The translations under genes and the position numbers were made by a program. Under the pieces are notes generated by a model that saw only the letters and a list, made by a program, of their open reading frames with translations, searched no databases and had not been told where the DNA came from. Positions 7,266 to 12,593 of a DNA stretch of 42,473 nt are shown piece after piece. How positions within the stretch are numbered: position 1 is the first letter of the stretch; the number at the start of each line of letters is the position of its first letter. Origin of the DNA: Dysgonomonas sp. HGC4 (lineage in GTDB: Bacteria; Bacteroidota; Bacteroidia; Bacteroidales; Dysgonomonadaceae); the NCBI RefSeq assembly GCF_001261715.1, contig NZ_CVRU01000059.1:1-42473 (forward strand), read 5' to 3'.

Positions 7266-9719
7266 ATGCTATACATTGATGTAATAGTTCCACTGCCACT
7301 GCCAGGCGTGTTTACTTATAAGATACCCGATCTGCTTGCAGATCGGGTTATTGTTGGTAGCAGGGTTATTGTGCAGTTTGGTAAGAAGAAATTCTATACT
7401 GCAATTATTCATCATGTATATCATTCGCAAGAGCCTAAAGAAGGGATTAAAGAAATAATATCTGTTCTAGACGATCATCCGATAGTATTACCAGAACAAC
7501 TTCAGTTTTGGGAGTGGATATCCTCTTATTATATGTGTACCTTGGGGGATATTTATAAAGCAGCATTACCTTCGGCTCTAAAATTAGAGAGCGAAACACT
7601 AGTTTTTTTGGATGCATCGTTTGAGGCGAAAGAACCTCTTACAACTAATGAGTCGAAAGTGTTTTATGTACTTTCAGATTCTAAGCCTCTCCGTATTGCG
7701 GAAATAGAAAAGCTTACGGGATTATCTAATGTGATTCCCTATGTGAAATCTCTCACAGATAAAGGAGCAGCATACCTTAATGAAAACATTCAAAACAAAT
7801 ACACTGCAAAAACAGAGGTTTCGATACGATTGGCTAAAAACTATTCGGAAAGCGAACTTAATGAGATTTTAGATAAACTAAAGCGGGCTAAAAAGCAAGA
7901 GCAAGCTTTAATCTTATTTCTTGAGCTGAAAAAAGAAGCAGGAGATCATCCTGAGTTTTTTATTCAGAAAAAACTATTTCTGGAACAAACGGGAATAAGC
8001 TCTTCTGTTGTGGACGCATTAATCGAAAGGAGCGTATTAATTGCATTTCAGAATGAGATAGGACGTTTCGATTATGGAGATCCCGACCTTCTGTCTTCTA
8101 AAATGCTTAACCCTTTTCAGGAGAAGGCATACAATCAAATATATGATAGCTTCAAAGAAAAACCAGTTGTGTTACTTCATGGGGTGACATCTTCGGGGAA
8201 AACCGAAATATATATTCAGCTAATAAAAGATGCCATTGAGCGTGGTGAACGAGTTTTGTACCTTTTACCCGAAATTGCATTAACTACTCAAATAACTGAA
8301 CGGCTTAAATCGGTTTTCGGAAATAAATTACTTGTATATCATTCCAGATTCAATGATAATGAACGTGCCGAAACGTGGCAGTCTTTACTTCAAAAAGAAG
8401 AATGTCAAGTGGTATTGGGTGCACGCTCTGCTGTTTTTCTGCCTTTACGAAATCTAGGATTAGTTATTGTGGACGAAGAGCACGAGGCTTCTTATAAGCA
8501 GCAAGATCCGGCTCCACGTTACAATGCACGTAATGCGGCTATTGTGTTGGCTGGGATTTATCAGGCAAAGACATTGCTGGGAACGGCAACCCCTGCTATC
8601 GAAACTTATTACAATGCGCTTTCGGGAAGATATGGTCTGGTGATTCTTAGTAAACGTCATTCTGAAATAGAGTTGCCCGAAATAGTACCCGTAAATACAA
8701 AAGACCTCAGAAAAAGAAAACAAATGAAGTCTATCTTATCTCCTCCGTTGATTGAGGAAATGAGAAACGCCTTAGGACGAGACGAGCAGGTGATTTTGTT
8801 TCAAAACCGAAGAGGATTTGCTCCTTTGATAGAATGTAAAACCTGTTCTTGGACTCCAAAATGTTTGCATTGCGATGTAAGTCTCACTTTTCATAAAGGA
8901 CAACGGGTGATGGTTTGTCATTATTGTGGAGCAGTTTATTCGATACCTACCGAATGCCCTGAATGTAAAACTCCGACGTTGGAGATGCAAGGGTATGGAA
9001 CGGAAAGAATTGAAGAATTAGTGCAGGAAACTCTTCCCGAGGCTAATGTGGTGCGTATGGATTTAGATACAACCCGAAGCAAAAGATCTTTTGAAAGGAT
9101 AATTGCTGATTTTGAAGCGAATAAAACCAATATTTTAGTGGGTACTCAGATGGTATCGAAAGGGTTGGATTTTGATAATGTAAGTGTAGTGGGTATTCTC
9201 AATGCTGACAGTATGCTTAATTATCCCGATTTTAGAGCGCATGAACGAGCTTTTCAACTAATGATGCAGGTGAGCGGACGTGCAGGTAGAAGGCATAAGC
9301 GTGGGTTGGTGTTGTTACAAACGGCTCATCCAGGACATCCGATTATTTCTTATATCAGAAATAACGATTATGCATCGTTCTACGAAATGCAAATAAACGA
9401 ACGTCAACTTTTTAGATACCCTCCTTTTTATCGATTGATAGAAATTGTAATTAGAGGAAGAGAAGAACACGTAGTTGATGGTTTAGCCGTAGAGTTTGCT
9501 CAGGTTCTAAGACAATCTTTTCAAGAAAGGGTGTTAGGTCCAGTAAAACCGGGGATATCAAGGGTGCAATCTCTTTATATTCGCAAAATAGTATTGAAGA
9601 TCGAAAATCAGGCATCACCCCAGAAAATTAGAGAATTAATTGAATTCTATCAAAAGCTGGTGATGCAGAATTCTAAATATAAATCGGTACTTTTACATTA
9701 CGATGTCGATCCGATGTAA
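7266..9719 (+). CDS. priA: Primosomal replication restart helicase PriA
   Basis: A superfamily 2 3'-5' DNA helicase that recognises stalled forks and loads the replisome. The 817-residue length is typical. The N-terminal 3'-end-binding domain starts at once with YIDVIVPLPLPGVFTY. Walker A is GVTSSGKT at about 306-313, and the Walker B/DEXH box is DEEH near 402. The eight-cysteine zinc module runs from CKTC to CPEC at about 525-569. The late helicase motifs GTQMVSKGLDFDNV and QVSGRAGR follow. The ATG at 7266 follows the upstream stop by 6 bp and matches the family N-terminus. Confidence 0.97.
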   Translation: MLYIDVIVPLPLPGVFTYKIPDLLADRVIVGSRVIVQFGKKKFYTAIIHHVYHSQEPKEGIKEIISVLDDHPIVLPEQLQFWEWISSYYMCTLGDIYKAALPSALKLESETLVFLDASFEAKEPLTTNESKVFYVLSDSKPLRIAEIEKLTGLSNVIPYVKSLTDKGAAYLNENIQNKYTAKTEVSIRLAKNYSESELNEILDKLKRAKKQEQALILFLELKKEAGDHPEFFIQKKLFLEQTGISSSVVDALIERSVLIAFQNEIGRFDYGDPDLLSSKMLNPFQEKAYNQIYDSFKEKPVVLLHGVTSSGKTEIYIQLIKDAIERGERVLYLLPEIALTTQITERLKSVFGNKLLVYHSRFNDNERAETWQSLLQKEECQVVLGARSAVFLPLRNLGLVIVDEEHEASYKQQDPAPRYNARNAAIVLAGIYQAKTLLGTATPAIETYYNALSGRYGLVILSKRHSEIELPEIVPVNTKDLRKRKQMKSILSPPLIEEMRNALGRDEQVILFQNRRGFAPLIECKTCSWTPKCLHCDVSLTFHKGQRVMVCHYCGAVYSIPTECPECKTPTLEMQGYGTERIEELVQETLPEANVVRMDLDTTRSKRSFERIIADFEANKTNILVGTQMVSKGLDFDNVSVVGILNADSMLNYPDFRAHERAFQLMMQVSGRAGRRHKRGLVLLQTAHPGHPIISYIRNNDYASFYEMQINERQLFRYPPFYRLIEIVIRGREEHVVDGLAVEFAQVLRQSFQERVLGPVKPGISRVQSLYIRKIVLKIENQASPQKIRELIEFYQKLVMQNSKYKSVLLHYDVDPM

Positions 9720-9776: not shown

Positions 9777-10532
9777 ATGAAAAAGAATTTGTTGGGCATG
9801 ATTGTTTTGTCTCCTCTTTTTATGCTTTCGTGTCAAAATAAAGCGGAAGTTACTCCCTCTCAAACTATAGAACAAGATACTCTGCAATCGGATATTGTGG
9901 TTGTTGAAGAGGTTTCTGCTCCTCAAAAGTCTACGATGGCATTGTATATGGAGGAGCAAGGTTTGGTGAATATTCATACATTAGACTCAACTATTCGTGT
10001 TGATTTGAAATATGCAACAACTGATAATTTCACTAAAGAAATACTTTACGATGATCTTGCTGAAGCATATCTGCATCCTATTGCGGCTAAAAAACTAGCG
10101 AAGGCTCAACAACTATTGAAGGAATGCGATTCTAATTTGTCTTTATTAGTATATGATGCTGCCAGACCGATGTCTGTTCAGAAGAAGATGTATAAAGTGG
10201 TGCAGAATACTCCATATCGAGAATATGTTGCCGACCCTAGTAAAACGGGTATGCACAACTATGGTATGGCAGTAGATCTGACGATTTGCGATTCTGACGG
10301 GGTGGCTTTAGATATGGGTACATCTTTCGATTTTTTTGGAAAGGCTGCAGGAATCAATCAAGAAGAACAGCTTTTAAAGGAGGGTTTGTTGACTAGAGAA
10401 CAAATCGATAATCGGAAATTACTTCGTAAGGTGATGACCGAGGCCGGATTTATTACCATACGCGGCGAATGGTGGCATTTTAATGCCAGCTCGCGAGCTG
10501 AGGCCAAAAGTAATACTAAGCTTATTGATTAA
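9777..10532 (+). CDS. VanX/DdpX-type D-Ala-D-Ala dipeptidase, lipoprotein
   Basis: A zinc metallopeptidase of the M15D family, expected to cleave D-Ala-D-Ala or related muropeptides. A lipoprotein signal peptide precedes the lipobox cysteine (FMLSC, residue about 19), so it should sit in the periplasm or on the membrane rather than in the cytosol. The M15D zinc site is clear: S-K-T-G-M-H-N-Y-G-M-A-V-D near residues 154-166 supplies His and Asp, and GEWWHF near 230 supplies the catalytic Glu and the last His. The arginine in YDAARPMSVQ fits the VanX substrate site. No vancomycin-resistance genes are nearby, so a role in wall recycling is more likely than antibiotic resistance. Confidence 0.9.
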   Translation: MKKNLLGMIVLSPLFMLSCQNKAEVTPSQTIEQDTLQSDIVVVEEVSAPQKSTMALYMEEQGLVNIHTLDSTIRVDLKYATTDNFTKEILYDDLAEAYLHPIAAKKLAKAQQLLKECDSNLSLLVYDAARPMSVQKKMYKVVQNTPYREYVADPSKTGMHNYGMAVDLTICDSDGVALDMGTSFDFFGKAAGINQEEQLLKEGLLTREQIDNRKLLRKVMTEAGFITIRGEWWHFNASSRAEAKSNTKLID

Positions 10533-10681: not shown

Positions 10682-11809
10682 ATGGATAATTATATAGTTT
10701 CGGCACGTAAATACAGACCTTCGACATTTAAATCGGTGGTAGGGCAGCGTGCGTTGACAACTACACTCAAAAATGCAATTGCAACCAATAAATTGGCTCA
10801 TGCTTACCTGTTCTGCGGACCTCGTGGAGTGGGGAAGACTACATGTGCCCGTATTTTTGCAAAAACTATTAACTGTCTTTCACCGTTAGCTGATGGTGAG
10901 GCATGTAATACGTGCGAATCGTGTGTAGCTTTTAACGATCAGCGATCTTTTAATATTCATGAATTGGATGCGGCATCTAATAACTCGGTTGATGATATTC
11001 GTTCATTGATCGATCAGGTACGTATTCCTCCACAAATAGGGAAATATAAAGTATATATTATAGATGAGGTTCACATGTTGTCATCGGCAGCATTCAATGC
11101 ATTCCTTAAAACATTGGAAGAGCCTCCTCATCATGCTATTTTTATTTTAGCAACAACCGAGAAACATAAAATTCTGCCTACTATTCTTTCGCGCTGTCAG
11201 ATTTATGATTTCAGCCGTATAAGTATTTCAGATACGGTAGAACATCTTAAATATGTAGCCTCACAAGAAGGTGTTAATGCAGAATTGGAAGCATTAAACG
11301 TTTTAGCTCAAAAATCGGATGGGGGAATGCGAGATGCACTTTCTATATTCGATCAGGTAGTAAGCTTTACAGGAGGAAATGTTACATACAAAGCCGTAAT
11401 TGACAACCTGAATGTGCTTGATTATGAATATTATTTCAAACTGACAGATGCAGTCCTTACTAATAATGTAGTGGATAGTCTACTTATCTTGAATGATATT
11501 CTCAATAAAGGATTCGACGGACATAATATTATCTCAGGAGTTGCTTCACACTTCCGTGATTTGTTGGTTTGTAAAGATCCTCGTACAGCCGAATTGTTTG
11601 AGGTTGGAGCATCTATTCGCGAAAGATATGTAACTACATCTCAGAGATGTCCTGTTGAGCTTTTATACAGAGCCATAGAGCTTGTTAATGAGTGTGATCT
11701 GAATTACAGAGTTAGTAAAAATAAAAAACTTCTAATCGAACTGACGTTAATCCGCTTGTGTCAGCTTTCGAGCAATCCACAATCAGTGGACGAAAAAAAA
11801 AAGTCATAA
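10682..11809 (+). CDS. dnaX: DNA polymerase III gamma/tau subunit, zero-frame (short, gamma-like) product
   Basis: The clamp-loader ATPase of the replicative polymerase. From the ATG at 10682, the zero frame encodes 375 residues: the AAA+ domain and clamp-loader domain III. Walker A is GPRGVGKT at 46-53, the zinc cysteines are near 65, 75, 78 and 81, Walker B is YIIDEVH at 125-131, and sensor 1 is ILATTE. The frame ends in DEKKKS and TAA immediately after ten consecutive A (11793-11802). The rest of the usual Bacteroidetes protein lies in the -1 frame, with no break in homology-like content. Short and long products may therefore both be made, as in Escherichia coli and Thermus, but here the unshifted product is the short one. 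Confidence 0.93.
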   Translation: MDNYIVSARKYRPSTFKSVVGQRALTTTLKNAIATNKLAHAYLFCGPRGVGKTTCARIFAKTINCLSPLADGEACNTCESCVAFNDQRSFNIHELDAASNNSVDDIRSLIDQVRIPPQIGKYKVYIIDEVHMLSSAAFNAFLKTLEEPPHHAIFILATTEKHKILPTILSRCQIYDFSRISISDTVEHLKYVASQEGVNAELEALNVLAQKSDGGMRDALSIFDQVVSFTGGNVTYKAVIDNLNVLDYEYYFKLTDAVLTNNVVDSLLILNDILNKGFDGHNIISGVASHFRDLLVCKDPRTAELFEVGASIRERYVTTSQRCPVELLYRAIELVNECDLNYRVSKNKKLLIELTLIRLCQLSSNPQSVDEKKKS

Positions 11810-11839
11810 TTGAACCTATCTTTCCTGTTGGAGAGGTAG
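11793..11839 (+). promoter_or_regulatory. Candidate -1 frameshift or slippage signal in dnaX
   Basis: Ten A (11793-11802) are read in the zero frame as GAA AAA AAA AAG TCA TAA. A slip by -1, or one extra A in the mRNA, gives GAA AAA AAA AAA GTC ATA and continues. The heptamer A-AAA-AAG is the known E. coli dnaX slippery sequence. Twelve bases later a 10-bp stem, CTATCTTTCC with GGAGAGGTAG (two G-U pairs, loop TGTT), spans 11816-11839. The spacer is longer than in classic ribosomal sites, so RNA-polymerase slippage as in Thermus dnaX is an alternative. Confidence 0.65.
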
Positions 11840-12402
11840 TAACTAATGCCCAACCTACTCCGGCAAGATCAGTAGGAGCGCCTTCTCAAGCCGCTTCGGC
11901 ATCTGCACCTCCAACAGTAAGACAACAACCCAAAGCAATAAGAAATTCTTCTATTGCAGGTTTTGGTGTGTCTCTTTCTGCTCTGTCTCAAAAAAAGGAA
12001 GAGGAAGAAGTTGTAGAGGCTCAGCAAACCGAAATTCTTACGGAAACCTTTACACCTTTGCAGCTTCTGAGTGAGTGGAAAGCGTATGCAGAATCTATTC
12101 CCGAAGAACATCATCTAAAGAATACAATGCTTAATTGTTTACCCGATCTTTTAAATAGGGATACTTTTGAAGTTGTTGTTAATAATCCTGTACAAGAACA
12201 GAGGTTGTTGGATAATGCTGTTAATATTATGCCGATTCTTCGTAAGAATTTGAGAAATACTCAGGTTCAAATGAAGGTGAGGGTAACTGTGGAGAATGAG
12301 AAAAAGCTGGGATTCACATCTTTAGAAAAGTTCAATCTAATGGTTGAGCAAAACGAAAGTGTGAAAAGGTTAAAGGACGAATTTGGTCTTGAATTGATGT
12401 AG
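11803..12402 (+). CDS. dnaX: DnaX tau-specific C-terminal part, reached by -1 frameshift
   Basis: This frame continues the clamp-loader protein after the A-run. A shifted product would have about 573 residues, normal for Bacteroidetes DnaX. It has a proline/alanine/serine-rich linker (residues after VIIEPIFPVGEVV), an acidic stretch, then a compact C-terminal domain beginning FTPLQLLSEWKAY and ending GLELM. The frame is open upstream of the A-run only by overlap. Its first ATG lies deep inside the C-terminal domain, at NTMLNC, so independent initiation cannot give the whole domain. Tau parts of this kind bind the polymerase core and the helicase. A sequencing error in the homopolymer is the main alternative. 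Confidence 0.8.
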   Translation, partial: VIIEPIFPVGEVVTNAQPTPARSVGAPSQAASASAPPTVRQQPKAIRNSSIAGFGVSLSALSQKKEEEEVVEAQQTEILTETFTPLQLLSEWKAYAESIPEEHHLKNTMLNCLPDLLNRDTFEVVVNNPVQEQRLLDNAVNIMPILRKNLRNTQVQMKVRVTVENEKKLGFTSLEKFNLMVEQNESVKRLKDEFGLELM

Positions 12403-12510: not shown

Positions 12511-12585
12511 GGGCGATTAGCTCAGTTGGTTCAGAGCATCTGGTTTACACCCAGAGGGTCGGGGGTTCGAATCCCTCATCGCCCA
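12511..12585 (+). tRNA. tRNA-Val (anticodon TAC)
   Basis: The acceptor GGGCGAT pairs with ATCGCCC (12578-12584), with discriminator A12585. The anticodon stem CTGGT/ACCAG encloses TTTACAC, giving TAC. The T arm is GGGGG-TTCGAAT-CCCTC, with its outer pairs slightly imperfect. CCA is not encoded. Confidence 0.95.
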
Positions 12586-12593
12586 CAACAGAA

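Follow-up and report, generated by a model that had tools for sequence, protein, structure and literature searches.

The dnaX gene of Dysgonomonas sp. HGC4, which encodes clamp-loader subunits of DNA polymerase, is probably a single functional gene that gives two subunits, gamma and tau, through programmed slippage of RNA polymerase on a run of ten A residues (A10). We infer the slippage itself, its step, and its ratio from sequence. RNA polymerase would slip on the run and thereby produce mRNAs in which the count of A differs. Gamma, ending in DEKKKS, would be translated from those with 10 A, or with 10 A and any multiple of 3 added, and messages with one A more or two A fewer would give a tau of 573 amino acids (aa) that reads DEKKK-VIIEPIF... 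Messages in the third phase would stop at a TGA at 11811-11813, giving another product of gamma length. In what we regard as the best reading, RNA polymerase slippage would require the run alone, and gamma and tau would arise whatever the frame of the DNA.

With somewhat less assurance, we consider it likely that in much of Bacteroidota dnaX is frame indifferent at the gamma/tau junction. A selected A10 would spread messages over all frames, and stops would shut off both frames other than that of tau. The tau frame would thus have drifted no fewer than 11 times, and perhaps 30, in our sample, with both subunits apparently kept each time. Because slippage would feed all three frames, the DNA frame given to tau would matter little, and such frame-indifferent slippage would account for a run that is widely kept in Bacteroidota while the tau frame flips. 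Much of a phylum appears to use a single A-run site.

Anatomy of dnaX in the window

The window, that is, the whole stretch of DNA analyzed, comprises 42,473 nucleotides (nt), and all dnaX features described here lie on its forward strand. The gamma open reading frame (ORF) begins with an ATG at 10682, ends at 11809, and encodes 375 aa in the zero frame. Its product matches positions 1 to 371 of the NCBIfam gamma/tau model NF011531 and also matches the gamma/tau model TIGR02397. Close to the end of the ORF is the putative slippage run, A10 at 11793-11802, where the zero frame reads GAC GAA AAA AAA AAG TCA TAA, with the gamma-ending TAA at 11807-11809. The tau C-terminal tail occupies 11803-12402 in the −1 frame, with 199 codons past the shift and then a stop at 12400-12402. 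This −1 ORF matches positions 430 to 613 of NF011531 (E value, 1.1e-30), and a Pfam search with it found no family. Since the zero-frame product and the −1 ORF match the same NF011531 model, we take the −1 tail to be the C-terminal part of tau; joined to gamma, it would make up the 573-aa protein.

A sequence-only reading of this DNA had placed the A10, the gamma stop, and a −1 tau tail just here, and the coordinates and model matches agree with it. It had also described gamma as the unshifted product and tau as requiring either −1 shifting or one more A in its message, and the frames bear this out. The two non-tau frames remain open for 2 and 3 codons past the run in the window locus (L002), the second being the +1 frame closed by the TGA at 11811-11813, as read from the sequence. 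Both would yield a product of gamma length.

Two further elements are present as that reading had claimed. The heptamer A_AAA_AAG lies in phase with the zero frame at 11797-11803, and 12 nt past it there is a 10-bp stem with a TGTT loop (11816-11839). The arms of the stem are CTATCTTTCC (11816-11825) and GGAGAGGTAG (11830-11839), and 2 of its 10 bp are G-U.

Upstream of dnaX are two ORFs, at 7266-9719 and 9777-10532, whose translations we take to resemble a PriA helicase and a D-Ala-D-Ala dipeptidase-like lipoprotein, respectively. A tRNA-Val (TAC) gene is located at 12511-12586, ~110 bases beyond the stop codon of tau.

The two-ORF gene in the genus and family

A two-ORF dnaX was found in all six genomes of the genus that we compared (G000 to G005), five of them with A10 and one with A11. 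In the last of these, G004, the A11 is followed by T, and the frame relation is unchanged. The zero-frame stop falls at the same codon in all six genomes and persists (TAA, TAA, TGA) while the −1 codons lying over it vary (ATA, GTA, CTG). Within the tau tail, amino acid changes are rare relative to silent ones in all 15 pairs of genus genomes; in the closest pair, pN was 0.011 versus a pS of 0.50 over the last 115 codons. These substitution patterns indicate that the tau tail is under purifying selection.

A two-ORF dnaX is easily taken for a pseudogene or a sequencing error, yet it is conserved here. The sequence-only reading had warned of an error at the homopolymer, in which case the true sequence would have a single frame, and an A10 in a draft genome of 196 contigs does invite that suspicion; alternatively, the gene might have decayed, leaving tau dead. 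Neither fits the agreement of all six genus genomes, G005 among them in a single contig, nor the low pN relative to pS in every pairwise comparison of the −1 tail, nor the presence of two-ORF dnaX genes in further families. We consider error or decay extremely improbable, and, judged by these comparisons, the arrangement in the window is not a sequencing error.

It is also conceivable that the −1 ORF is translated separately, by reinitiation or internal initiation, to give a C-terminal protein of its own. A region in which ribosomes could stop and restart is present, and a GTG at 11758 lies in the −1 frame inside gamma. However, no start is conserved in position. One sister locus (L003) has no ATG, GTG, or TTG among its first 60 tail codons, and the other five genus loci have starts at differing places, a GTG at codon 55 being common to L002 and L004 only. 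In addition, a −1 frame stop stands immediately 5' of the run in L004. The earlier claim that the −1 frame has no usable start therefore holds in the sense that no start is conserved, and it goes too far in that the GTG at 11758 exists. On this evidence, a separately translated protein is highly improbable.

In the family, 101 genomes were searched and 89 gave a match. Among the full-length matches, only the six genus genomes and G018 had an open frame shorter than 480 aa; the other short or split ones were partial matches (G039, G066, and G085). The nearest named relatives found belong to Proteiniphilum, at 79 to 80% identity, which makes Dysgonomonadaceae the probable family; the search behind this may omit records that are very close to the window. 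The genus forms a single clade of six in the gamma tree, with a support of only 58. One family genome contains a second DnaX-like match of 39% identity (G079:C62:1694-2764), which is either a paralog or contamination.

Conservation of the A run across Bacteroidota

The wider sample comprised 294 loci with 293 distinct junctions: 6 from the genus, 24 from the family, 80 from named records, 103 from the order, 72 from the class, and 8 from other classes of the phylum. The order loci were the best 24 matches listed, 25 chosen for a short frame, and 54 distinct ones of the 55 listed next, with G377 and G382 left out; this second part of the non-short loci was taken because the long rows came next. 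The class loci were all those listed bar one partial row (G650) and were not selected by frame. The 8 loci from other classes were picked by hand, and G754, which has a short frame, is among them.

A run of A9 to A13 was located at the junction in 224 of the 293 Bacteroidota junctions sampled. Most of these runs were A10 (164), followed by A11 (31), A9 (24), A12 (3), and A13 (2). Tau lies in the zero frame in 141 of the 224 run-bearing loci, in the −1 frame in 75, and in the +1 frame in 8. The class set had the run in 70 of 72 loci, with tau in the zero, −1, and +1 frames in 35, 34, and 1, respectively; genus g221 gives many of the −1 loci. Three of the eight loci from other classes carried the run. 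Among the 78 order loci not picked for a short frame, 35 had the run and 43 did not, and so many Bacteroidales without the run are a point against the slippage reading.

In families f3, f17, f53, f54, f71, and f99 and in named Bacteroidaceae, dnaX has no A run (3, 6, 4, 3, 3, 5, and 3 genes sampled, respectively). These run-less families may have lost gamma or may make it another way.

The 383,951 coding bases of the same 224 genes contained only 5 other runs of nine or more A. Of the lysine codons in gamma, 71% are AAA, and the chance that all full lysine codons within the runs would be AAA corresponds to a log10 sum of −102, a value inflated by shared descent. The run is found even in gene copies of ~60% G+C (e.g., L080, L085, and L089), and among loci with a G+C content of at least 55% it is present in only 8 of 18.

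Stops also cluster behind the run. In 206 of 222 loci, a stop closes each of the non-tau frames no more than 10 codons past it, compared to 17 of 67 loci without the run and 25% of 4,480 random gamma positions. The stop and tree counts exclude two loci in which no frame is open for 60 codons, L068 because of a contig end and L165 because its best frame closes after 40 codons. L165 (G126) does have A10, and either a further frame change or a downstream error may account for the lack of any longer frame after it.

The position of the run relative to the codons is variable. It starts at any of the three codon positions, and the next base is G, C, or T. The heptamer A_AAA_AAG is in phase in 36 of the 75 loci with tau in the −1 frame, in 32 of the 141 with tau in the zero frame, and in 1 of the 8 with tau in the +1 frame. 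The Bacteroidota sample conserves the length of the run, whereas its phase, the base after it, the heptamer, and the stem vary.

Two other observations concern short runs. In L103, the +1 frame is open over a long stretch near the junction, and the A run close by is only A5; the locus comes from a metagenome assembly and may be an error. Genus g167 of family f25 has a two-ORF dnaX with a short run, either A6, as A_AAA_AAG TAG, in L174 (G419), or A8, in L171 (G306). These two genes may have shifted to ribosomal frameshifting; no strong stem was predicted after the run in L174.

Changes of the tau frame

We mapped the frames onto a one-gene tree, built with FastTree from the gamma portion of 293 proteins. 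The tau frame changes at least 30 times on this tree, 21 times when branches below 95 are collapsed, and 11 times without lone two-ORF tips. Loci in two frames occur within six genera (g3, g234, g222, Aquimarina, Flavobacterium, and Chitinophaga). The Chitinophaga case is doubtful, because L127 groups with a Flavobacteriales record, L117, and may be misnamed. All eight loci with tau in the +1 frame are lone tips, four of them with A10, and some of these loci may be assembly errors. If RNA polymerase spreads messages over all frames, the DNA frame of tau would thus have been able to drift to and fro.

The range of run lengths, from 9 to 13, and the presence of congeners in different frames, such as L120 and L124 or L269 (A9, tau in the −1 frame) and L270 (A10, tau in the zero frame), could also be brought forward for phase variation of the DNA itself. 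The A10 would then gain or lose a base by slipped-strand replication, and cells would switch between a gamma-only gene and a fused one. The frame relation is, however, constant in all six genus genomes. In E. coli, tau carries the polymerase- and helicase-binding domains, so that switching it off should be lethal. We regard phase variation as a very remote possibility.

Transcriptional slippage or ribosomal frameshifting

Tau could instead be made by ribosomal −1 frameshifting at A_AAA_AAG with the aid of the stem, that is, by the E. coli signal with a reversed outcome. The window has both the in-phase heptamer and the 10-bp stem, and the heptamer is in phase in many of the −1 loci, as noted above. 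What is available of PMC5009743 also phrases the reversed type as ribosomal and gives a Chlorobium candidate.

Predicted structure past the run lends this alternative some weight. The fold z score of the 50 nt past the run averaged −0.54 over 222 loci, versus −0.06 for tau and −0.25 for gamma controls, and 11% of loci had a z score below −2, versus 5% in each control. A scan of 224 loci gave a peak of −0.53 at +8, versus −0.07 to −0.32 from +60 to +240; upstream of the run, values ranged from −0.07 to −0.52 and included comparable dips at −75 and −105. Structure appears slightly enriched past the run, and no clear shared element emerges; the enrichment counts somewhat for ribosomal frameshifting. 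As structure past the run is above that of the controls, a weak stimulator is possible.

The stem in the window is another matter. It is strong there, weaker in L003, and reduced to 6 bp in L005 and L006, these three being weak or displaced, and fold prediction after the run gave no comparable stem in L004 and L007. As it is weak, displaced, or missing in five of the six genus genomes, we rejected it as a conserved stimulator in the genus. The sequence-only reading had held up the A10 and the stem alike as elements that relatives might keep; the two-ORF form with A10 or A11 does recur in all six genomes, and the stem as a conserved element had to be given up.

Several other features of the junction argue against the ribosomal route. 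The spacer of 12 nt is long compared to that of E. coli dnaX, in which heptamer and stem are ~5 nt apart. No Shine-Dalgarno-like stretch was seen upstream when the window sequence was inspected by eye. G004 has no A_AAA_AAG, because its A11 is followed by T, and the genome encodes a tRNA-Lys with a CUU anticodon. In all eight loci with tau in the +1 frame, tau is out of reach of a −1 ribosomal shift, which would lead into a frame that a stop closes no more than 10 codons on. On the other side, two of these loci, L157 and L321, have their zero-frame stop directly after the run; a ribosome might conceivably shift +1 at that stop, which is a point against slippage. Finally, ribosomal −1 shifting does not require a ten-base run and would be expected to depend on heptamer and stem, yet both of these vary.

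Taken together, we consider it rather unlikely that ribosomal −1 frameshifting is how tau is made. With its in-phase heptamer and 10-bp stem, the window could nevertheless be a place where such shifting acts too. Between transcriptional and ribosomal slippage, a choice that the sequence-only reading had left open, the comparison makes the former the more probable.

Lysine tRNAs and homopolymer avoidance

A tRNA search of the genome, in which 150 of the 300 first candidates were scored, found 39 tRNAs, among them two genes for tRNA-Lys UUU and one for tRNA-Lys CUU. The presence of both lysine tRNAs was suggested to be possibly relevant to slippage in Thermus (PMC5009743, in the text available). 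We also counted homopolymers in the 168 ORFs that were 150 aa or longer, amounting to 208,368 coding bases within 262,473 bases of the 4.5-Mb genome. The dnaX run was the only A10 in these ORFs. Runs of nine or more A were seen twice, versus 16.8 expected from synonymous shuffling, and runs of nine or more T were not seen, versus 5.0 expected. The examined ORFs of this genome avoid long A and T runs. A lack of such avoidance excludes genomes from the slippage candidates in PMC1088944, as far as the accessible portion of that study goes.

Comparison with known dnaX systems

Reversed-polarity dnaX is already known. According to the sections available of Antonov et al. 2013 (PMC3711429), 17 two-ORF dnaX genes from 12 genera, all −1, need recoding to make tau; nine of the 17 have exactly 10 A, and the authors favor transcriptional realignment. 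Their data include 20 Bacteroidetes species, and Bacteroidota may be among the two-ORF dnaX cluster. PMC4066793, likewise in the part available, states that the dnaX shift makes the product longer in a restricted set of bacteria. The gene in the window resembles the genes of Antonov et al. in having a gamma ORF followed by a −1 tau tail without a conserved start of its own and in having poly(A) at the junction, here in all six genus genomes. It differs in its context, as the run is also present where tau lies in the zero frame (141 loci) or in the +1 frame (8 loci).

As measured against the available portions of these papers, that context across Bacteroidota is new here. In a literature search of limited scope, we recognized no account of how widely the run is conserved, of loci with tau in the +1 frame, or of repeated changes of frame. 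If slippage is the mechanism, dnaX in Bacteroidota is an example of transcriptional slippage releasing a coding sequence from dependence on one frame, and the need for gamma becomes testable by way of clades that keep the run and clades that lack it. There may also be a practical side to this, as gene callers are likely to truncate tau at the run.

With E. coli dnaX, which uses ribosomal −1 frameshifting in the account given by the available text of PMC5009743, the window shares the gene, the two products, and an A_AAA_AAG in the zero frame. The polarity is opposite, as the sequence-only reading had recognized: the unshifted product is tau in E. coli and gamma in the window, where tau would be the shifted one. 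The window also differs in that no Shine-Dalgarno-like element was seen upstream by eye and in that its stem is farther away and not conserved. E. coli has a single tRNA-Lys (UUU), whereas the genome examined here has UUU twice and CUU once.

The likeness to Thermus thermophilus dnaX, in which slippage is transcriptional and occurs on A9 (PMC1088944 and PMC5009743, in the parts available), would extend to the mechanism if our reading is correct. Both systems have at least nine A irrespective of phase, close stops in both non-tau frames, and two lysine tRNAs. They differ in the frame of tau, which is the zero frame in T. thermophilus and the −1 frame in the window.
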